DNA of 64,000 nt. It comes from Trichodesmium erythraeum GBRTRLIN201. Its GTDB lineage: Bacteria; Cyanobacteriota; Cyanobacteriia; Cyanobacteriales; Microcoleaceae. Location of the stretch: assembly GCA_018457135.1 (NCBI GenBank), contig JAGGDU010000213.1, positions 14,040-78,039 of the forward strand, written 5' to 3'. The position numbers and the translations under genes were made by a program. Shown one piece after another: positions 1 to 35,232 of the stretch. Positions within the stretch are counted from its first letter, which is position 1. The number at the start of each line of letters is the position of its first letter. The notes beneath the pieces are model-generated. The model made no database searches. It was not told the origin of the DNA and saw only the letters and a program-made list of their open reading frames with translations.

Positions 1-1219
1 TAGCAATTTTACCTAAAGTTCCTGATGCCATTAACTTCGGTAAATCTCCAATATCCTCTAAAGGAATTAACTGACTTTCTCCGGTTTGTTTATCTCGATA
101 AGCTACCATTACAAAAGGAATAAAATCTGGAGTTAGCTCATCTAATAAAGCAGAATTATGGGTTGTAACTAAGATATAAATTTGACGCTGTTGACCAATT
201 TCTCTTAGCATTTCTAATAGTAATCTAGCGCGAGAAAGATGTAAACCATTATCAACTTCTTCTATGACAATTAGACTATTTTCTGGTTGAGTTAACATTG
301 CTGTTAAAATTGCTAAAAATCGCAAAGTTCCATCTGACATTCCACTAGCATCAACTATCATTGGGTCTTTGTTAAAATCCCAGATTTCTTCACAGTAAAG
401 TATGGCATCCCTACCTAATCTTCCCACAGATTCAGACCATACTTTTTGCATATCTCCTTCTGGTAATTTTGCCAGATATTTTAATAGTTTTTCCTCTACT
501 TGAGCTTTTATTGGTTGTGGTAATGCTGCTAAAACTCCAGCAATATTAGAACCGTCTCTTTCTAACTTTGTTGATAGAGGTGAAGGATACCTCATTTGCG
601 AAGGTATTGGATTTAAAATAAAAATATTTTTGAGAATCTCTGGAACCATAATTTGCGCAGACATCATTTGATTAACATCATCAAATTCATAGAATGGAAT
701 CTTATCTGTAGAATGACCCAACCAAGGATTAGGAGTAGGATAAAATTTTTTTATAACTTCTTTTTCTGCTTCATAATGTTTATAAATTATTCTATTTTTT
801 TCATAAGTAAAGGATATAAAAAAAAGTTGCTGACATGAATTATTATCCGAGATATTTTGACTATCAATTAAAGTTAAAGATTCATCTACTACCTGTACAG
901 CATTTGTATTTTCTACAGTGATTTTATAAAGATAATCATTCCCTTTATCTTTCCCATCTACTAATACTTGAAAACTAAATTTTGTTTCTGGTTTTCTAGC
1001 TGCCCACTCAATTCCTCCTCTAATACCTGGAGTAAAGCGATCGCCTATTAATACTGTTTCTACTGAAGCACGTTGCATCATACTATTCAAAAAATCTAAG
1101 GCATCTACAACATTAGATTTCCCACTAGCATTTGTACCAATTAAAACCGTTAATGGGTCAATATATAATTCTGCATGACGGAAACTTTTCCAGTTTTCCA
1201 AAGTTATTTGTTTCAACAT
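1..1219 (-). CDS. AAA/RecF-like ATP-binding protein, C-terminus beyond window
   Basis: The reading frame is open from an ATG at 1219 down to the window edge, about 406 codons, and has no stop, so the C-terminus lies outside. It looks like an SMC/RecF-type single-protein ATPase. Walker A is GTNASGKS at residues 28-35, an ABC-signature-like SDGTLRFLAIL lies near residue 300, Walker B (LIVIEEVDNGLH) near residue 316, and a switch-like TTHNSALLDEL near 355. The N-terminus MLKQITLENWKSF is typical of this group. Such proteins often work with a nuclease or toxin partner, but any partner would lie left of the window. Precise role unknown; the ATPase fold is well supported. Confidence 0.85.
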   Translation of the reverse strand, partial: MLKQITLENWKSFRHAELYIDPLTVLIGTNASGKSNVVDALDFLNSMMQRASVETVLIGDRFTPGIRGGIEWAARKPETKFSFQVLVDGKDKGNDYLYKITVENTNAVQVVDESLTLIDSQNISDNNSCQQLFFISFTYEKNRIIYKHYEAEKEVIKKFYPTPNPWLGHSTDKIPFYEFDDVNQMMSAQIMVPEILKNIFILNPIPSQMRYPSPLSTKLERDGSNIAGVLAALPQPIKAQVEEKLLKYLAKLPEGDMQKVWSESVGRLGRDAILYCEEIWDFNKDPMIVDASGMSDGTLRFLAILTAMLTQPENSLIVIEEVDNGLHLSRARLLLEMLREIGQQRQIYILVTTHNSALLDELTPDFIPFVMVAYRDKQTGESQLIPLEDIGDLPKLMASGTLGKIA

Positions 1220-2182: not shown

Positions 2183-2233
2183 ATTAATATCCTATTTTTT
2201 CAAAGCTACTGCTGTTCTTAAAGTATAAAAAAA

Positions 2234-3196
2234 TTATTCAACTAGACTTATCTCTTCATTGATAATCACAATTTTTCCAACAGCATGATTCATTTCGCTA
2301 TAAGTATGAGCAGCTGCTATTTCTGCCAACTTATATGTTCGGTCAATCACTGATTTAACTAATCCATCTTCAATCAATTTTCGGAGAGAAATTAAATCAC
2401 GAGGATTAGGTTGAACAAGAATTAATTTAGACTTTTTACCAGGTACAAATAAAGTCAATAAAGTAGAAGGTAAATTTTCTAAATTTGGTAGAGTAGAAAT
2501 ATAAACTCCTTCTGATTTCAATACATTTTCACAACTAGAAAAAGTTTCTTTTCCCACAGCATCAAAAATAATGTCATACTGTTCAAATTCTTTAGTAAAA
2601 TCAACCTGATTATAATCAATAACCCGATCAGCCCCTAAACTTTCTACTAGAGTAATATTTTTACTACTACAAACACCTATTACTTCAGCTTTCATTGCCT
2701 TAGCAATTTGTACGGCAAAAGTTCCAACTCCCCCAGAAGCACCATTAATTAATATTTTTTTTCCTGGTCTAATTTGACCTAAATCAAGTAATGCTTGAAA
2801 AGCAGTTAAACCTGCTACAGGTACTGCTGCAGCTTGGCAATAATTCATATTCTTTGGTTTTAATGCAACAGTATTTGCAGGTACAGCAATATACTCTGCA
2901 TAAGCACCTCCTAATAATGGATTTACGAATGTATAAATTTCATCTCCAGGTTTAAAGTCTTCTACTTTTTCTCCTACTTTTAATACAACTCCAGATAAAT
3001 CACAACCTAAAATAATTGGAAAGTTAAAAGCTGATAATAATTGTAATTGCCCTTGTCTAATTTTCCAATCAACAGGATTAACACTAGTAGCGTGAATTTT
3101 TACTAATAATTGATTTGATGTAATTAATGGTTCTTGAATTTCTGAATATTCTAAGACATCAATGGAACCATATCGATTAATAGTGATTGCTTTCAT
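2234..3196 (-). CDS. NAD(P)H:quinone oxidoreductase-like MDR protein
   Basis: A 320-residue medium-chain dehydrogenase/reductase with an N-terminal GroES-like half (GCDLSGVV at 64-71, GDEIYTFV at 84-91) and a Rossmann half with the cofactor loop NGASGGVG at 151-158. The catalytic zinc cysteines of alcohol dehydrogenases are absent, which points to the quinone-oxidoreductase/enoyl-reductase branch using NAD(P)H. It is probably a soluble cytosolic enzyme. The substrate cannot be read from sequence. The ATG at 3196 gives a standard N-terminus (MKAITINRYG). Confidence 0.9.
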   Translation of the reverse strand: MKAITINRYGSIDVLEYSEIQEPLITSNQLLVKIHATSVNPVDWKIRQGQLQLLSAFNFPIILGCDLSGVVLKVGEKVEDFKPGDEIYTFVNPLLGGAYAEYIAVPANTVALKPKNMNYCQAAAVPVAGLTAFQALLDLGQIRPGKKILINGASGGVGTFAVQIAKAMKAEVIGVCSSKNITLVESLGADRVIDYNQVDFTKEFEQYDIIFDAVGKETFSSCENVLKSEGVYISTLPNLENLPSTLLTLFVPGKKSKLILVQPNPRDLISLRKLIEDGLVKSVIDRTYKLAEIAAAHTYSEMNHAVGKIVIINEEISLVE

Positions 3197-3432
3197 AGAT
3201 TTTTGTTGTTGAATTTTTAATTCAAGTATAGTACAAATAAATTATATCATTATAACCTACAAATAAACGAGATTATGATAGAAATTTTCCTGATATATAA
3301 AAATAATAATGATATAAATAAACTCAGTTTATTGTTTTAGTTCATCACTCCTAATGATGTTAGTTGAGATACTTATAAATAATAGGAAAAAATCAACTAA
3401 ATTTAAAGTCACTTTATTCCAGTATTTAATTA

Positions 3433-4746
3433 TTAAAATGTAATTCGGCAAACTATCACAGATATCAAAATTCCTACCAGATCAGCAGATAAAGCAGCAG
3501 GCAAAGCATATCTAGTTTTTTTAATTCCAACACTGCCGAAATAAACAGCTAATACATAAAAAGTTGTTTCTGTAGAACCCTGGATAGTTGATACTAAATA
3601 GGATAGAAAACTTAATGGTTCATTTGTAACTATTTCGGACATAATGCCAAAAGCACCACTACCAGATAAAGGTCGAATTAGTGCCATAGGTAGTGCTTCT
3701 GCTGGTATTCCAATTAGATTAGTTATGGGCGATAAAATTCCAGCTATAATATCTAGCGCACCACTAGCTCTAAACATTCCAATTGCTACAAAAATTGCCA
3801 CCATAAAAGGAATTACTCTAATAGCAACTTCAAATCCAGATTTTGCGCCTTCAGTCATTGTTTCATAAACTTTAACTCCTCGGAAATAGCCAAACAAAAG
3901 AAAGGAACAAATTAGTATTGGTAATAACCAATTAGACAAACTTTGGAGAAAAGTAAGACTAAAAATATAAGGTATACCTCTGAGTCTTAAGCGATAAATT
4001 ATTGCACCTAAAAAAACGCCAATTAAACTAGCAAAAACTAACTTTCCAATTTTGGATGGTGGTGTAAGTTCTGAGATTTTTTCTTCTCTGTCAAACAAAT
4101 CATTTTTCTCCAAATCTTCTGAAGTAAATGATTGATTTATACTTGGCATTGGTTGCCGACTTGCAAAAAATTTTGCTGCTACAACTGCCATAATTGTAGA
4201 ACAAAAAGTAGCAATAATTGTAGGTAAAATAATATCCCCAGGATTAGTAACACCTGCACTCGCTCGAATGGTTATTACACTAATAGGAATTATAGTTACC
4301 GAAGAGGTATTAATTGCTAAAAATAAACACATTGCATCTGTAGCAGTTCCCTTTTCTGGATTTAATTTATCCATTTCTGCCATAGCTTTTAAACCCATAG
4401 GTGTTGCAGCATTTCCTAATCCTAAAGCATTAGCAGCTATATTGAAAATAATGGCAGACATAGCAGGGTGAGATGCAGGTATATTTGGAAAAAGCTTTAC
4501 CATTATAGGGTAAATAAAACGGGCAATTATTTTCATCCCTCCTGCTGTTTCAACTATTTGAATTATCCCTAACCATAATGCCATACTACCAATTAGTCCG
4601 ATGGCTAAAGTAACGGCATTTTTGGCAGCTTCAAATGATGCTTCAGTTATTTCCATCATTCTATTATTGTATGCAGCTATAACAGTAGCTGAAATTATCA
4701 TAAATAGCCAAATACTATTAATAGGTGATGTTTGTGATTTATTCAT
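3433..4746 (-). CDS. fused SpmA/SpmB nucleoside-recognition membrane protein
   Basis: A 437-residue polytopic membrane protein carrying two Gate (nucleoside recognition) domains, equal to Bacillus SpmA and SpmB joined in one chain. The SpmA-like half contains NALGLGNAATPMGLKAM near residues 105-125. The SpmB-like half contains RPLSGSGAFGIMSEI near 355-370. A charged linker (about residues 205-230) separates them. In spore formers the pair acts in spore core dehydration; in non-sporulating cyanobacteria the fused form is taken to be a transporter of unknown substrate. A perfect 23-bp tandem duplication sits immediately upstream of the start codon. Confidence 0.88.
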   Translation of the reverse strand: MNKSQTSPINSIWLFMIISATVIAAYNNRMMEITEASFEAAKNAVTLAIGLIGSMALWLGIIQIVETAGGMKIIARFIYPIMVKLFPNIPASHPAMSAIIFNIAANALGLGNAATPMGLKAMAEMDKLNPEKGTATDAMCLFLAINTSSVTIIPISVITIRASAGVTNPGDIILPTIIATFCSTIMAVVAAKFFASRQPMPSINQSFTSEDLEKNDLFDREEKISELTPPSKIGKLVFASLIGVFLGAIIYRLRLRGIPYIFSLTFLQSLSNWLLPILICSFLLFGYFRGVKVYETMTEGAKSGFEVAIRVIPFMVAIFVAIGMFRASGALDIIAGILSPITNLIGIPAEALPMALIRPLSGSGAFGIMSEIVTNEPLSFLSYLVSTIQGSTETTFYVLAVYFGSVGIKKTRYALPAALSADLVGILISVIVCRITF

Positions 4747-22439: not shown

Positions 22440-23780
22440 GCCGCATTGATGGCCTCTGGCTATTGGTTTGACTATCAAATTCATTATTCAGACTGAGATC
22501 TCCCGAAAAGCAAGCTTTCATTTTGGATAGAAGACTTGGGCATTAAAGCAAGCTTTCATTTTGGGTAGAAGACTTGGGCATTAGAGAGGTAGTTTTTGCG
22601 GGTGGAAGTGCTATAGACTTGGTAACTCCTATCCAAGAAATTTAGTATAGGGCAAAAATTCCTTTGCTGTTAGCTGCTGATGTTCAGAAAGGAGTTGCTA
22701 AAAGGCTTTCTGGGGTAACTTAGTTTCCTCCACTAATGGTGATCGCTACTATTGTTCAAACTGATCTGAAAGAAGAGCCCAACAGTTATGCTGAAACTAT
22801 GGGAGCTATTACAGCTCAAGAAGCTGTGGCTATTGGTTGGAATTGGTATTGGCTCCAGTGGTAGATGTAAATAATAATCCTGATAACCCAGTCATTAATA
22901 TTCGAGCTTTTGGAGAAACGACGGCTTCGGTTGGTCAATTCTCAAGAGTTTTTCTTTGAGGCGCTCAAAAATATCCAGGGTTGACCACGGCTAAATATTT
23001 TCCTAGTCATGGGGATACGACAGTTGATTCTCATTTTAATTTACCAGTTATATCTCACTCGGAAAGTAGATTGGTAACAGTTGAATTATCTCCTTTTGTG
23101 AAGGCGAGCGCTTCAGAGATAGATTCTGTGATGAGTAACCATTTGTTGATCCTGAGCAAGGACGAAAAATATCAGTAAGTTTACTCCACAAAATTATTAT
23201 GGGTCAGTTGCGCTAAAAGTTGGGTTTTGGTGAATTAGTTGTGACTGATGTTTTGGTTATGGGGGCGATCGCTAATTTTTATGGTTTGCCTAATGCAGAT
23301 ATTTTAAGTATGCCTGTAGATCCTGAGCAGACAATTAATACTGTTTGTGACGCGGTGGCTCCAGGCCGTATTTCTGAATTACGAATTGATAAATCTTTGC
23401 AGAGAATTTGGTAAGCTAAAATCAAGGTTTTTCCTACCTAGCAACCTGGAAATGAAAACATACCAGATTATTTCTTAGCTCCTACATACAATTTAGTTAA
23501 AAATTTAGCGAATTCGGCACAAGAAAAGAAAGTGTTGCTCAAATTTTGCCAGGCTCTATTCAAGTAGAAGGAAGTTATCTGACTCCAAGTACAGATAATC
23601 ATCATTTACGTAATTTAGCATTTGTACAGGATATACTTCTTAACACTTATTTCTCAGGTTATCAGAACCTTTACTTCTCATTGATATATTGATGGTCATT
23701 GTTTTGGACAAAAAATTAGTCTAACACAAGTAGCAGAGGATTTCATGAAGAGATTATTAAGAAATGGCAAACTATAAGGT
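22440..23780 (+). pseudogene. decayed family 3 glycoside hydrolase (NagZ-like)
   Basis: Reading three frames together restores most of a cyanobacterial family 3 beta-N-acetylhexosaminidase/beta-glucosidase. Fragments in order are ASGYWFDYQIHYSD, FWIEDLGI, KIPLLLAADVQ, SYAETMGAITAQEAVAIG, the catalytic-loop region KYFPSHGDTTVDSH (intact members read KHFPGHGD), and LGFGELVVTDVLVMGAIANF, DILSMPVDPEQTINTVCDAV. Many frameshifts and stops break it, and a 38-bp tandem duplication adds another. Intact reading segments remain at 22981-23178 and 23220-23414. The right end blends into noncoding DNA near 23780. Confidence 0.9.
22508..22583 (+). repeat. 38-bp tandem duplication inside the glycoside hydrolase pseudogene
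   Basis: 22508-22545 and 22546-22583 abut and differ at one base. Because 38 is not a multiple of three, the duplication shifts the frame. Confidence 0.92.
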
Positions 23781-25026: not shown

Positions 25027-25258
25027 AAATGTAAGTTTACTCAATATTAAATAGTAATTTCTCTATCATTCTATATTATAAATAGACTTTACTGTTAAAA
25101 TAACCCAGATGGATAGAAGCAAGTGCAAAGAAGTTATGCTAATTTTTTGATATTTTAAGAGCTCAATCTATATTTTTTAAATCTTAATAACTAGCAGATT
25201 AAAAGCTAATTGAATTTATTTATCAGGTATAGCCAATGTGTAATTATTATATACTTGA

Positions 25259-26506
25259 TTAAGATTGTTTAATAATAACCCTTTCTACACCCAAACTTAT
25301 TAGCTTATTTTTAACTTGTAAAACAACATTTTTTAAATTTATATATATTAATAAATATTCATTTTCTGTCAATCTGTATATCAGGGATGATTTACAAAAT
25401 AATGATAATATATCTTTTGGTATATCATCAAATTCAAATATTTTTTGTAGAATTAATTTACCACCAAAACCAGGTAGATTATTTTGCAATTTTACCCATG
25501 AATTATGAGCCATATATTTGCCATTAAAAGTAGGTATAAAACTGTATATTTTTGGAAGTTGATTGACTGCTTTTCTGACATTAGTATGTTTTAACATATA
25601 ATTGTTTTCTGGTTTAGTTAAATCCAAGACGAAAGCTTCAGCATTTCCTAAATAATTTTCTGGTATGCCAACCTTTCTATATCTTAAGTTACAAGGAAAA
25701 ATAAATCGTTTAATAGGAACAACTGATAAAAATTCAAATAAAGCATCGTTTGTGCTATAAGCACTTTTTTCATTAGAAATATTTTTATTTTTACCCTTGA
25801 TTAAATCTAACTTTTCTTTGGTTAAGATACATTCAAGATAACTCCAATTATTCTTATTTTGAAAAAAACTGTTCAGTATAAAAACAATAAAAGACGTTGA
25901 ACTGAAAAGTTTATCTTTCCATGATAATTTTTTAAAGCTTGCAGATATAAAATCATCCATTTTATTAAAATTTATTGTAAATAATGGTTCAGATTTAGAG
26001 ACATATTCTAGGTCTTCGTATGCTTGAGAAAGATACTCTAATAATTTAAAATATGTTCCACCATCTGCTATGAAATGATTAACAAGTAGAGTTACGCCAT
26101 AATAATTTTGATTATGATTTAAAATCACATATATTAATGGAATATCTTTATTAATAGCATCTGCAGATTTTTTGGGAATATTGAATTGATTTTTTATATA
26201 AGTTCTTGCATCTAATAAATTATCAATATTTATTTCCTGTTCATCTAGATCAATATGAATAAAACCAACACCAGATTTTTGTGGGTTACATACGACTTTT
26301 AATGGGGAAAAAAATTTCTTTACCAATCTTCCTCCCAAAATTGGTACACTATCTACTATTTGTTGAATTGCTACTTTCAATCTATGAGAATCTATTTGAT
26401 GTTTGTACCAATTTATCACACCATAATAAGGCCAAACTCCCATCTCAAGATCAAATTTTGAAAGTTGATACTCTTGATACACATTACTATTTGTAATTAA
26501 TTCCAT
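25259..26506 (-). CDS. BAHD-like (HxxxDG) acyltransferase
   Basis: A 415-residue protein from the ATG at 26506 (a GTG at 26515 is possible). It resembles the transferase/condensation superfamily: LSKFDLEMG near the start, DSHRLKVAIQQIVDSVPILGGRLVKK as in BAHD N-domains, and the catalytic HxxxDG in VNHFIADGG with H144 and D148. A degenerate counterpart of the BAHD DFGWG motif reads GFGGK near residue 350. Likely transfers an acyl group to an alcohol or amine; substrate unknown. It is preceded on the same strand, to the right, by a decayed copy of the small gene described at 29091, so it was probably the second gene of that pair. Confidence 0.72.
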   Translation of the reverse strand: MELITNSNVYQEYQLSKFDLEMGVWPYYGVINWYKHQIDSHRLKVAIQQIVDSVPILGGRLVKKFFSPLKVVCNPQKSGVGFIHIDLDEQEINIDNLLDARTYIKNQFNIPKKSADAINKDIPLIYVILNHNQNYYGVTLLVNHFIADGGTYFKLLEYLSQAYEDLEYVSKSEPLFTINFNKMDDFISASFKKLSWKDKLFSSTSFIVFILNSFFQNKNNWSYLECILTKEKLDLIKGKNKNISNEKSAYSTNDALFEFLSVVPIKRFIFPCNLRYRKVGIPENYLGNAEAFVLDLTKPENNYMLKHTNVRKAVNQLPKIYSFIPTFNGKYMAHNSWVKLQNNLPGFGGKLILQKIFEFDDIPKDILSLFCKSSLIYRLTENEYLLIYINLKNVVLQVKNKLISLGVERVIIKQS

Positions 26507-27075: not shown

Positions 27076-27201
27076 TACCGAATATTTTAATCCCTGTATT
27101 AATTGAGCGATAAAACCTTGCAAATTTATTCTAGCTTCAGGAATAATATCAAAAGATATAGATTATACTGCTAAATTCAAGGTTAGTTTAGAAATATACA
27201 T
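27076..27201 (-). pseudogene. remnant of the small conserved gene (copy of 29091-29447)
   Basis: Reading from an ATG at 27201 gives MYISKLTLNLAV, a stop, then SISFDIIPEARINLQGFIAQ, clearly the N-terminus of the intact gene at 29447 (MSTSKLTLNLVEGSISFDF). Homology fades after about 40 codons. This remnant lies upstream of the intact acyltransferase just as the intact copy lies upstream of the broken acyltransferase. Confidence 0.85.
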
Positions 27202-27608
27202 CAGAAATAAAATATAAACAAATTGTATTCTAAGTTAACTCAATATTAAAGATAATTTTCGATCTTAAATTATAGATAAAAAAAATTTTATGTTAATATA
27301 ACGTGGATAGAAGCAAGTGAAAAGTTGTTGGAAAATATTTTAGCTAGAATGTATATTTTATAGCTGAATCTAGATCTTTTTAATCTGAATAGCTAGAAAC
27401 TTAAAAGCTAATTTATTTTGAAAGTAAACTCAATTTGTAATTATTATGTAATTGACACGATATTTTAATAATAACCTTTTATCAAACCAAATTTATTAAC
27501 TTATTCTCAACTTGCAAAACAACATTTTTGAAATTCGCATATATCAATACATATTCATTTTTTTTTCGTTCTGAGTCTTAGTGAACTTTTCCCAAAAATG
27601 ATAATATA

Positions 27609-28966
27609 TATAAATAGAAAAAATAGGTCAATTCCCCTAGAGTAGAAGACATCGAAATAAGGCAGCCTTCTGGGTACAGAAAAAGTATTTCCCCAATGTT
27701 AAAAAGACCAAAAACTGGTTGCTCAATGATGGCGAATATATACTAAACCAAGACTCAGATGTTCCTATTTGATCAGGCACATTAAAGTTAAAGGTAATAA
27801 ATGACCATTATGAAGGTGACTGGAGTTATTGGAGCAACAGAATAAGTAAATATCCAGGGGTAAGGAAAGAAGTCACGACGCTGTTAAGACGACAAAAAAA
27901 TAAATGCACATTTTGTCAGGCAACCTTTAAGCCTACAGACTTAATGGAAATAGAGCATATAAAATCTAAGTCTGAAGGTGTTGAAAACACATACAAGAAT
28001 AAACAACTGTTGATGATATGTTGATATTGAGGCAGAGATATACCCATGACAAGGAATGTCGGCGTTGGTGAATTAAGTTATGATTGGAGTTCATAGCGAT
28101 CGCTATGAATATCTATAAGGAACTGGAACATCCCAAAATTGATATTTACTGGATCAGTAAGTGAATTGAATGCTTTAACTTCGCGTTATATTTTGAGTAG
28201 CAAAGAGTCCTTCGATGTCATATGGCAAGATAGTGCCGAAGTCTAGTATTTTCTTCTTCTACTCTGGTCATATAGGTTTTGCTGATAATTTTATCCCCAT
28301 CATTAATAGGCCTTGGTATATACTTTCCATCCATCTGTAATTTAAAGGAGGACATTCCTATTTTTTAACTTGTTCCCATAAAGGATAAAATGTTTTTCCG
28401 CTAAGATTTCTAATAACCCATTCTAAAACTCCTTTTTTAAAATGATTTACTGCGGTTCATACCCAAATTTGGTTTTTTTTGAGCCTAATTATCTCTGTAA
28501 TTCTTCTAGCTCTTCTACTTGAGGAGTTTTTTGAGGAGAGTAAGAACGTGGTAATAGTTGTCCTACTTGTTTAATTGAGTTGATAATTGTAGTATGGTGT
28601 AGCTTTTTGACTCTTGATATTCCTCTTAAGCCCATAGCATTAACATATATTTTTAAGCATTCATCTGTGAGTTGATCACTATAACCTGTATAAGTTTCAT
28701 AGGAATCAATAAATTGAGGACCACAATAAACACAGATGTAGTTTTGCTTTCCTTTCTTTTGGCCATTTTTATTGATGTGAGTTGATTGACATTCTGGACA
28801 TTCTATAATTTTTCTGCCTAAGAGCGCGATCGCTATGAACTCAAATCATACCTTAATTCACCAACGCCGGAATGTCTAGGAGAGGAGCAGTGTGAGGTGA
28901 AAGTCAGGCACGGTTTTGAATTTGAAGGCGAGTCGGATAGGGTAACCTATATGGCGAACGTTTAAC
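27609..28966 (+). mobile_element. 5'-truncated group II intron fragment
   Basis: Its left part encodes the C-terminus of a cyanobacterial (CL-type) intron-encoded protein with a few frameshifts: FWVQKKYFPNV, NWLLNDGEYILNQDSDVPI, GDWSYWSNRISKYPGVRKEV, then an HNH endonuclease domain with CTFCQ, MEIEHIKSKSEG. The right part holds a recognisable but mutated domain V (28889-28919: GAGCAGTGTGAGGTGAAAG then CACGG) and domain VI, ending near GGCGAACGTTTAAC. Domains I-III and the reverse transcriptase are missing, so it cannot splice or move alone. It carries an IS1-family insertion at 28061-28868. Confidence 0.88.
28061..28868 (-). mobile_element. IS1-family element, transposase decayed
   Basis: An 808-bp element with 43-bp terminal inverted repeats (28061-28103 and 28826-28868) matching at 41 of 43 positions, and an 8-bp target duplication GGAATGTC on both sides (28053-28060, 28869-28876). 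The minus strand encodes an IS1 transposase in pieces: a zinc-ribbon start ECPECQSTHINKNGQKKGKQ, YICVYCGPQF, and the DDE end TYMTRVEEENTRLRHYLA. Several stops and shifts kill it. Just inside the left end the HIP1 octamer is embedded in a perfect 20-bp palindrome (28090-28109). Confidence 0.93.
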
Positions 28967-29090
28967 ATATCATAAAATTCAAACTATCTTTGCAGAACTA
29001 GTTTCACACAAAAATTAGGTAAATAATTTTGTAATTTAACCGATGAATTATGCTTCATGTAATTGCCATTCAAAATTAGTTTGAACACTT

Positions 29091-29447
29091 TCAGCCTCTT
29101 TGGTCTAAATATTGATTAATATCATCATAAACTCTAGTAAGTTCAGCTTCAGTGGTTATCCGAATTCGCTCATCTCGCAAAGTAATTAATAATTTAGCAG
29201 CAAAAGGACTAGGCCAAATATTAGGGTTACAAAAGATTTCTAAAAAGACATCTCCTGTATACCGATATTCCGTAGGTTTTTGTGGAGTTGGTTTACCAGA
29301 ACTACCTGTAGCCGTTTTGGCAGCAACAGATTTTAATTGCTTTATTAATTCAGCTATTGCACTTTGTAAATTTCTTGCCGCCTCAGGGGTAAAATCAAAA
29401 GATATAGATCCCTCTACTAGATTCAAAGTTAGTTTAGAAGTAGACAT
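29091..29447 (-). CDS. small conserved protein of unknown function
   Basis: I place the start at the ATG at 29447, giving 118 residues beginning MSTSKLTLNLVEGSISFDF; the duplicate remnant at 27201 starts at the equivalent codon, which supports this. The N-terminal 45 residues look like a beta strand then helix (PEAARNLQSAIAELIKQLKS), a Gly/Ser/Pro linker follows, then YTGDVFLEIFCNPNIWPSPF and a helical end. No known domain recognised. It was the upstream gene of the duplicated pair with the acyltransferase. Confidence 0.7.
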   Translation of the reverse strand: MSTSKLTLNLVEGSISFDFTPEAARNLQSAIAELIKQLKSVAAKTATGSSGKPTPQKPTEYRYTGDVFLEIFCNPNIWPSPFAAKLLITLRDERIRITTEAELTRVYDDINQYLDQRG

Positions 29448-30001
29448 AATAAATAAATAATTTAATTGAAGAAGATTATAGGTTAATGGTTCAATTGAAA
29501 AAGAATTCAAGTCTAATTAAGTTTCGATACTTTAAAAACCCCGGAGTTAATGACCAGGCTGCTCCTAAATAGTGTTTTTGATAGTGCTATTAAAAAATCT
29601 ATTTCTACCTTTAATATTCAGCAATCTAACACTAAAGGAAACATGGAGACAAATGTAGCAATTCTATATAATTTGTGAAAAAAATAAGCGACTAGAAGGG
29701 AGGAGACAGGAATCAGAAGGCGTGATAAACAGAAGTTGAAACTCTTGTCAAGAAGTTCAGTGATTTTACAAATAATTTAGGATTGCTATACATATATAAA
29801 GACTATTATTAATGGATAAGTATATCACACAAACTAAAGCTCAAGTTACTACTTGAAGCCAAAAAATTAGGCATTTGCTATTTTTGACTAATTTAGCTTT
29901 AGCTTGAATATGATGATATATGAGTTTAGTTAATATCAGCATTTTTTTAACTTAGCACAAAAAATTTTTTCCTAAATCTGTATCCCTAGTAAATTAAGTA
30001 T
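29448..30001. other. gene-free stretch, 554 bp
   Basis: No coding signal, RNA gene or strong hairpin recognised. It contains short A/T runs only. Confidence 0.4.
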
Positions 30002-30865: not shown

Positions 30866-31770
30866 TAAAGCATTTTGCATTACACTTTTAGGTAATCAAA
30901 GATATGAATTTTCTTGATAAAAAAACATTATCTTTAGACCTAAGTCAAAAAATTGTCAGTACTTATTAAGCCTCACAGACATCTATTCAGATGTACTCGA
31001 AAATTGGAATTAGGGTCAGTGAGAGTACAATGTACTGTTTTTTTGAATCAAATAGAATTCTGGAAAAAAATCTTCAGAAGTACTCAACCCTTAAGAGAGG
31101 AAAATCAAAGAAAAAGGGAGGATAATTCGGATTTATTAGAGATGTGCAATGCCGAAAACCTGGTATTTTTGGATTACTTGGGTGTTTGACTGGGGATGAT
31201 GAGACTAATGTTCAGGAGCTTATTAGATATCTTCATAAAAGGTTACTAACTCTTTGAAACGCCGTTCCAAAATCGGCATTTTTGGAGAAGTATATTGGAG
31301 AACAGGCTAACATTAATAACCAAAAATATTAAGGTAGTCGAGTCAAAGTCAATTGGGGCTATCAATTTTAGAAGTACTAATTCTTTCAAAATTTTATGAA
31401 AATCAATGAAGAGAAAAAATTTCTAACAATTTATCCAGAAAGAGTTAGTGCTGAAATTATGATCAGGAGCAGTGGTAGTTATGAAAAACTTTTAAGTCCA
31501 TAAAGTCAAGGGTATTGAAAAAATGTTAGAGTCTGTGGGAACTAAGATTATGTATTTATCTCCCTACTCATCGGAGCTCTCTCCAATGGAGAGTTTATGG
31601 TAAGAACACCCTAGCATTTATCAGCAAACTTTACTTTGCGTTACGCCTAGAAACTTAGAAGCAGTAACTAAACTATTAGAATGGGGTATTAAGTGATATT
31701 TCTCTAAGCAAATCAAAAATTATTTGACCTACTATTATTGCTGTACTAGTTAGTTTTGCAAAGTGCTGTG
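30866..31770 (+). mobile_element. dead IS630-family element, internally deleted
   Basis: About 905 bp between imperfect inverted ends (left TAAAGCATTTTGCA, right TTTTGCAAAGTGCTGTG) related to those of the copy at 32434. Transposase fragments read LSLDLSQKIVSTY, then after an internal deletion RSTQPLREENQRKRED, FLDYLGV, and PYSSELSPMESLW. The segment between the helix-turn-helix and DDE parts is mostly missing. A surviving frame at 30953-31189 is only a fragment. Confidence 0.8.
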
Positions 31771-32433: not shown

Positions 32434-33479
32434 TACACTGTTTTGCATAACTATTAGGTGTAATGATATTTTCTGAATTGTTTTGATAAAAATGAAACCT
32501 TATTCTTTAGACTTACCTCAAAAAATGGTCAGCACTTACGAAGCTGGAGATACTATCTATTGGGAAAGTTGCTCAAAGATTTCAAGGAGTGCAAAAGTAG
32601 GGTACAAGAGCTATTAAAACGAAAACCATAAACAGGCCAATTACTGCCTCGATGAGTAATAAGAGGTAAGCCCAAGCAATTATTAAATTATAAAAATGAA
32701 ATAGAAGATTCTAGAAAGACTTATTGAGACCTGACCTGATACTAGTAGAATGCTGTGAATATTTGCAAGACAAAGCTGGAATCATAGTCAGTGAAAGTAC
32801 AATGTGCCGTTTTTTGATTCAATACAACTGACCCTGAAAAGAACCCTAAGAAGCACTTAGGCTCTAAGACAGGAAAATCAAAGAAAAAGGTTGGAGTATT
32901 GGAAAGTAATTAGAGATTTGCCATCCCGAAAAACTGGCCTTTTTGGATGAAATGGGTATTTGACTGGGCATGATGAGACCAATGGCCAGGAGTCTATTGG
33001 AGAAGGATTTTATGGGTCCAAACGTTACTATAGAGGTAGCCAAGTCACTTTCATTGGGGCTATCAAATGTGGTCATGCGATCGCTATCAAAACCTTTGTT
33101 TTAAATCTAATCCTGATGAAAATTAATTAAGGGAGAAGATTTTCAATATTATCCAGAAAGAATTAGCACCAAAATTATGGCCAGGAGCAGTGGTCGTTAT
33201 GGACAATTCTGATGGTTCATAAAGTCAAGGGTATTGAAAAAAATATTAGAGTCTGTGGGAGCTAAGGTTATATATCTATCTCCCTGCTCACCAGAATTTA
33301 AACCTATTGAGTATTAATGGTTGGAACTCAAAGCATAATTCCGCAGCATTTGTGCCCAAAAACTTGAACGGAGTAACTAAACTTTTAGAGTTAGGCATTA
33401 AGTTGTTTTCCTCTAAGCAAATCCTAAATTAGTTTATTCACTGTTATTACTGTAATAATTAGTTATGCAGAGTGCTGTA
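32434..33479 (+). mobile_element. dead IS630-family element, near full length
   Basis: 1046 bp with imperfect 20-bp terminal inverted repeats (32434-32453; 33460-33479) and TA at both outer edges, the IS630/Tc1 target. The transposase starts MKPYSLDLPQKMVSTYEAG at 32492 and keeps the DDE end: DETNGQESIGEGFYGSKRYY, TFIGAIKCGHA, VHKVKGIEKN. Many stops and shifts make it inactive. The left inner sequence is related to the copy at 30866. Confidence 0.87.
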
Positions 33480-34442: not shown

Positions 34443-35232
34443 CAATGTTATCTCAGTTATTAGTTATCAGTTATCAGTCTCTCTAGCTTCATTTAGAGGC
34501 TTGAAATACTAAAATTGAAATTTCATCAATTCCGATAACATTTCTGTTATCGGAATTATTGAGAATAGTTTAGCGTCTGCTATAAATATAATGTTATTTT
34601 CCTATGTCCTATTGCTATCATATTTATGATCAATTGTTTTGGGTCTTGTCTTTTATATGTTGAGTATTAATGAACTATTTATATTGGTTTGATATGTGAG
34701 TCTCTTTCTATTTTTTTCTTTTGTTTTTTTTAATTTCTATGGTAAGCATTCAGTGGTTATCTATTAGTGATCAGCTATGAGTTATTAACTCATTATAGTG
34801 CAATAAGGAATTAGTCTCCAAGGATAATTAAAAAGTTATGCTTGCATAGTTTCTGCTAAGTTATGAAGTGCAGAATGTTGGTAGTAGAGAGTTACTAATA
34901 GTAGTATTCTCAAAGTAACCAGAAAATTTTATCAACCTCAATAGTCTTGGTGAGAGTTAGCAGTATATTCAACTAAAAAAATTTAACTACTAAATCCAGA
35001 ATTTACCTATTACTTACAATCAAAAAATGTAGGTTTAATTCGACTATTTAAAATTGAGGATAGCTTAGATATCATTAATCTCTATAAGGTAAAACTAGAG
35101 CAAGTAGATGGCTGTGCTATGCATTAGTCAAAATCAATTTTATTTTCTGGATATTTTTATTGGAAATGTTTATTAGTCTTGGGCGTTGGTTAATCAAGCA
35201 TTGAGAAATAGCTAATCTCTGCCCTCTACTTC
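34443..35232. other. gene-free convergent spacer, 790 bp
   Basis: Besides the hairpin at 34528-34557, it holds short TTATCAGT-type direct repeats (about 34455-34480) and long T-rich runs (34690-34735). No coding content recognised. Confidence 0.45.
34528..34557 (+). terminator. 13-bp stem-loop downstream of ndhM
   Basis: A perfect 13-bp stem (34528-34540 with 34545-34557) with a 4-nt TTTC loop. The sequence after it has no T-run. It is the strongest simple hairpin I found and probably ends the ndhM transcript. Confidence 0.7.

Follow-up and report, generated by a model that had tools for sequence, protein, structure and literature searches.

The window analysed here, a stretch of 64,000 nucleotides (64 kb), belongs to contig C213 (85,273 bases) of the draft genome of Trichodesmium erythraeum GBRTRLIN201 (7.22 Mb in 241 contigs). 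At the studied locus, an IS1 element sits inside a 5′-truncated group II intron, which itself sits inside the relic of a duplicated acyltransferase-like gene (Table 1). A sequence-only reading of the same DNA had proposed this three-layer nest, and we confirmed it by sequence comparison and by analysis of the junctions. The gene relic, the intron and the IS1 all look dead: frameshifts and a 94-nt deletion affect the intron protein, domain V has degenerated and the IS1 has a broken transposase frame. The relatives used for comparison are referred to by codes; by inference from coinciding match positions and E-values, G002 and G003 correspond to Okeania sp. SIO3I5 and Okeania sp. SIO2F4, and G005 and G006 to Trichodesmium sp. 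MAG_R03 and Trichodesmium sp. MAG_R02.

Table 1. Features of the nested locus, in window coordinates.
Feature	Position	Strand	Basis or remark
Acyltransferase-like gene, intact copy 1, 418 aa	25259–26515	−	ORF
Second copy of the neighbouring gene, N-terminal fragment	27084–27211	−	77% identical to 29330–29457
Acyltransferase copy 2 relic, left of the intron (gene 3′ end and downstream spacer)	27276–27609	−	74% identical to 25078–25413
5′-truncated group II intron, IS1 included	27610–28966	+	Homology to full-length copies; left limit uncertain, 27610 to 27641
Broken IEP remnant, end of maturase part and HNH region	27641–28052	+	Frameshifts, 94-nt internal deletion at 28011/28012
Target site duplication, left, GGAATGTC	28053–28060		Sequence
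IS1-family element, 808 bp, transposase broken	28061–28868	−	Inverted repeats, transposase match, target duplication
Target site duplication, right, GGAATGTC	28869–28876		Sequence
Degenerate group II domain V	28882–28920	+	RF04357 32.6 bits, E 8e-5, below gathering threshold
Domain VI region and intron 3′ end (GTTTAAC)	28921–28966	+	Comparison with full-length copies
Acyltransferase copy 2 relic, right of the intron	28967–29089	−	76% identical to 25422–25543
Neighbouring gene, intact, 139 aa	29091–29510	−	ORF

Results

The outer layer is a duplicated stretch of two genes

The duplicated stretch spans both the acyltransferase-like gene and its neighbour. According to the protein matches, the copy 2 relic keeps acyltransferase residues 325–365 and 380–417, the remainder being gone, while the fragment of the second neighbour copy matches residues 17–61 of the neighbour protein. 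All six other genomes searched within the genus match the intact copy 1, G001 and G003 by fragments only, and nine other genomes match the right part of the relic at 77–82%. The neighbouring gene was matched in 17 of the 17 genome entries searched, several of which are one genome entered twice. The 418-aa product of copy 1 gives weak matches to PapA5-type acyltransferase models (E 0.0036 and 0.0093, far below the cut-offs), has no Pfam match and finds its best solved chain at E 0.38 only; its family is uncertain, and "acyltransferase-like" is to be taken as a putative label. The 139-aa neighbour protein has no match in Pfam or NCBIfam.

A relic-like stretch is also located between the intact acyltransferase-like gene and the neighbouring gene in Trichodesmium sp. 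MAG_R02 (G006). It is 85.6% identical to the studied relic over 201 bp, as against 74.8% to copy 1 over 313 bp. We placed these sequences in a nine-row alignment, of which seven rows span the intron site (our own copy 1, the sequences of G001, G002, G004 and G005, the G003 relic and copy 1 of G006); the other two are the studied relic and the G006 relic, the latter ending before the site. A more distant second G004 gene (62%) was left out. In the tree of the nine rows, the studied relic pairs with the G006 relic with a support of 88/89, short of the tree tool's own mark of 95/80. The relic is thus probably shared with G006 and would predate the divergence of these genomes. The relic-like piece of G003 is uninterrupted at the intron site, and the tree does not settle whether it is the same relic as the studied one.

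Other repeats occur in the window. Two diverged direct copies, at 31063–31769 and 32836–33478 (70–96% identical in blocks, about 1.7 kb apart), resemble a broken transposase-type gene, which is a guess from their sequence. A 38-bp unit is tandemly duplicated at 22507–22582 (97%), and at 34523–34562 lies an inverted repeat whose 18-nt arms are 4 nt apart and 89% complementary.

The middle layer is the 3′ part of an HNH-type group II intron

The intron lies on the plus strand and the acyltransferase relic on the minus strand, that is, the insertion is antisense to the gene. A search with bases 27609–28059 gave 31 matches in the same genome, itself included, the best other copy being 77% identical. 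Related introns had been expected in the host genome, and we indeed found six full-length copies of 2518–2554 nt there. Comparison within the genome showed that their ends coincide: the 5′ end reads GTGCGAC in five and GTGAGAA in one, and the 3′ end is GTTTAAC in all six, as in the studied intron. The copy on contig C203 still encodes a 635-aa protein with RVT_N, RVT_1, GIIM and HNH domains. This protein matches TIGR04416 with 347.6 bits (cut-off 300), and its nearest solved relative is chain C of PDB entry 6me0 (residues 36–576, E 1.8e-114).

When started, by choice, at position 27619, the studied piece aligns to positions 1903–2518 of the 2518-nt C203 intron, and it is 66–74% identical to eight full-length introns, six from the same genome and two from Okeania. 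It lacks the first ~1900 of 2520 nt. The 5′ terminus GUGYG, domains I–III and the RT domain, all present in the full-length relatives, are absent, and we class the copy as a remnant and not as a working intron. The sequence-only reading had stated that the C-terminus of the IEP with its HNH region and domains V–VI were kept. This holds as far as homology goes, and a piece of the IEP remnant read across one frameshift matches Pfam HNH with 23.6 bits (cut-off 21.4), but the protein is frameshifted and lacks 94 nt, and domain V is degenerate. The copy is expected, on sequence grounds, to be inactive. Because the intron is antisense to the gene, even a whole intron could presumably not have been spliced from the acyltransferase mRNA.

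The assignment to domain V/VI models was borne out below threshold only: at the gathering threshold, the Rfam scan of the whole 64-kb window found nothing, but a local scan found, besides the RF04357 match of Table 1 (gathering 53), RF00029 with 23.6 bits (gathering 40, E 0.081). At the equivalent position, the full-length copies of contigs C134, C203 and C60 pass the gathering thresholds of both RF04357 and RF00029, and it is these homologous copies that settle the identity of the intron. The domain V hairpin of the studied copy folds no better than shuffled sequences (z −0.95), and for domains V and VI jointly the z value is −1.66, versus −5.39 in the C134 copy. The ribozyme core is degenerate, its identity being drawn from homology and position.

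Other copies of the family were also noted. On contig C134 (L021), two introns of the same family, at 2191–4711 and from 4757, are only ~45 nt apart; an ORF at 1438–2211 runs into the first of them, a further domain V lies upstream at 1244–1284, and Trichodesmium MAG_R02 (L081) matches this stretch along 3.8 kb. On contig C203 (L022), copies at 1–974 (plus strand, cut by the contig start) and 3814–1297 (minus strand) face each other with their 3′ ends ~320 bp apart. On contig C52 (L025), a 671-nt copy at 2166–2836 has both ends and little of the protein-coding part. We also considered an open protein frame running through domain V as a constant trait of these introns and rejected it, as the trait varies among 14 copies: the longest open frame passes the start of domain V in three (L022, L023 and L080) and stops before it in the others.

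The intron site is exact on the right and fuzzy on the left

On the right side, the intron ends with AC at 28966 and homology to the acyltransferase gene restarts at 28967, so that the group II 3′ terminus AY is joined directly to the exon. BLAST matches to other intron copies mostly stop at 28965–28968 (two extend, to 28977 and 28983), and the gene matches of nine other genomes begin at 28966–28969. On the left side, homology to the gene ends at 27609 in our own copy 1, G001 and G002, and at 27606 in G003. Intron homology is secure from 27641 (BLAST) and plausible from ~27617; local alignments to eight full-length copies begin anywhere from 27571 to 27647, varying with the scoring. The left junction is fuzzy in these alignments, and only an inferred position can be given for it. 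The earlier proposal that the intron joins the dead acyltransferase with the alignment resuming within a few bases therefore stands for the right edge, exact at 28966/28967, while 27609 is, by alignment, the last base of the gene and the left edge is less sharp.

In the intron-free copy 1, only eight bases, CTTTTGGT, separate the two flanks, and these are missing from the relic. The insert is absent from all seven aligned sequences that span the site, which come from our own copy 1 and, one apiece, from six other genomes. The G001 sequence contains a partial repeat of the region around the site, and both repeats are uninterrupted. On visual inspection, the C134 intron shows, immediately upstream of the part retained here, a sequence similar to the lost CTTTTGGT; GATAATAT is present both in the acyltransferase-like gene and in the intron of contig C13. 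We do not claim microhomology at the left junction, bases 27610–27640 fitting neither gene nor intron securely.

The inner layer is an IS1-family element

The perfect 8-bp duplication reported around the IS1 was found to be exact, GGAATGTC standing on both sides of the element. The IS1 family is recognised by terminal inverted repeats together with a target duplication of 8–9 bp, and both are present here: the inverted repeats measure 44 nt and are 95% complementary, their arms including one base of the duplication on each side. IS1 itself is ~768 bp long. The transposase, read on the minus strand, has a broken frame whose first half carries the match to the NCBIfam IS1 transposase model NF033558 (positions 1–104 of 199, E 7.3e-27, 94.6 bits for a cut-off of 100). 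This frame also matches the IS1/IS1595 zinc-binding domain (47.7 bits, cut-off 28) and, below the cut-off of 26.1, the Pfam InsA zinc ribbon (21.4); the C-terminal piece has no Pfam match. Compared with its family, the 808-bp element therefore shares the inverted repeats, the 8-bp target duplication and a transposase piece that matches the IS1 model, but its transposase frame is broken. Its identity to the six best-matching other copies of the genome is 87–94%; two of these were translated, and their frames are broken too. The insertion site lies just before domain V, and the flanks, once joined, align to the C203 intron without a gap.

Survey of intron ends in the genome

We searched the genome with the first 370 nt and the last 322 nt of the full-length C134 intron, 40 candidates being scored in each search, and then paired the matches, using all 40 5′ matches listed and 37 of the 46 3′ matches listed. 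The nine unused 3′ matches fell short of the last part of the 322-nt query, and two of them are other pieces of the studied copy. Among the matches listed, 20 copies were paired, 17 had the 3′ end only (the studied copy included) and 20 the 5′ end only. At least four of the 17 3′-only copies and at least three of the 20 5′-only copies are at or close to a contig end. Among these matches, there is no excess of 5′-truncated copies (17 versus 20), so that the survey lends no support to a general rule of incomplete reverse transcription in this genome.

Discussion

Taken together, these observations suggest, with a probability of roughly 0.78, a tandem duplication, an antisense intron insertion in which reverse transcription stopped, a later IS1 insertion and decay. 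In an ancestor belonging to the Trichodesmium group, the two-gene stretch would have undergone a tandem duplication, and the acyltransferase copy 2 would have decayed. An HNH-type group II intron would have inserted antisense into copy 2, its reverse transcription, proceeding from the 3′ exon towards the intron 5′ end, most likely stopping after ~0.6 of 2.5 kb. The cDNA would have been joined to the upstream flank with the loss of eight target bases, giving an intron copy that was presumably dead on arrival. Later, the IS1-family element would have inserted just before domain V, duplicating 8 bp of target, and everything would then have decayed. The order of duplication, intron and IS1 that had been read from the sequence is supported by the sharing of the relic with MAG_R02, for which the tree gives moderate support, and by the seven intron-free sequences out of seven that span the site. 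Copy 2 may already have been dead when the intron arrived, and any dating of the intron against the species splits is tentative.

A group II intron enters its target by reverse splicing, after which it is reverse-transcribed from a primer at the 3′ exon. If reverse transcription halts, the 3′ end is expected to be exact, the 5′ end to be missing and the upstream flank to be nearly intact, which is the pattern observed. Incomplete reverse transcription, to which the sequence-only reading had likened the case, fits the small loss on the left (eight target bases) and is probably the cause of the 5′ truncation, even though 3′-only copies are no commoner than 5′-only copies. We favour a truncation that would have happened at insertion and not afterwards. 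The junction itself, with its exact 3′ end, truncated cDNA and 8-base loss, may, on balance, be a natural footprint left by a target-primed group II insertion that was aborted; it is readable because the intron-free site survives in the paralog and in sister genomes.

The main alternative is that the intron inserted at full length and that its 5′ three quarters were lost afterwards, together with eight flanking bases. The region does carry other clear deletions, the 94 nt within the intron and the ~324 codons missing from the start of the relic, and among the matches listed 5′-only copies are as frequent as 3′-only copies in the genome. However, such a deletion would have had to end by chance within ~8 bases of the original exon–intron junction, and we regard it as rather unlikely. 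An arrival of the intron ahead of the duplication, with a later precise loss from copy 1, would agree with the similar size of the copy 1/relic identity (74–76%) and of the intron/intron identity (66–74%); yet it makes a precise loss a necessary assumption, when our own copy 1 and the sequences of six other genomes are uninterrupted, and appears highly improbable. That the arrangement is an artefact of assembly is hardly credible: the genome is indeed a draft in 241 contigs, but the target duplication and the intron 3′ end are exact, the locus matches the intron-free site at the base level and it lies in the middle of an 85-kb contig.

The locus can be compared with known systems. With bacterial HNH-type group II introns, whose nearest solved relative here, 6me0_C, was deposited as a maturase reverse transcriptase, the full-length introns of the genome share the domains found in the C203 protein, a 5′ GTGCG and a 3′ AC; the studied copy differs from them by the absence of ~1900 of 2520 nt, by its frameshifts and by its damaged domain V. 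In the accessible part of PMC7923331, the 5′-truncated introns H.ha.F1/F2 are described as likewise keeping only the C-terminal part of the protein and domains V–VI, for which the authors suggest "perhaps" an incomplete reverse transcription. Our locus differs from that description in that a paralog and other genomes show the intron-free site, and in that the intron contains an IS1. The group II twintron of T. erythraeum, as presented in the available text of PMC4649490, comes from the same organism group and shares with our locus nested elements and a high intron load, but at our locus a DNA transposon forms the inner element and a remnant the outer one, and no splicing is expected.

Excerpts of earlier reports provide the background. 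Most copies of group II introns in bacteria are given there as truncated (PMC4028801, PMC4424553). Non-coding DNA and mobile elements are described as abundant in Trichodesmium genomes (PMC4649490, PMC9950141), with ~78% of paralogous gene clusters annotated as selfish elements, in the section consulted of PMC9950141. Trichodesmium was noted for its intron load and for a twintron (PMC4649490, in part), and T. erythraeum IMS101 is credited with 24 group II introns per chromosome in the extract of PMC8919778. In the open-access literature, as judged by titles and the starts of abstracts, we found no paper on the locus.

The locus is a clear and readable but ordinary record of genome decay, a single new case of a kind that is already well known, which adds detail and no new principle. 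Nonetheless, it shows, nearly base by base, how non-coding DNA accumulates, through duplication, retro-insertion, transposon insertion and decay. If the junction is indeed the footprint of an aborted insertion, a collection of such sites from Trichodesmium and Okeania could reveal how aborted retrohoming events are resolved in bacteria.
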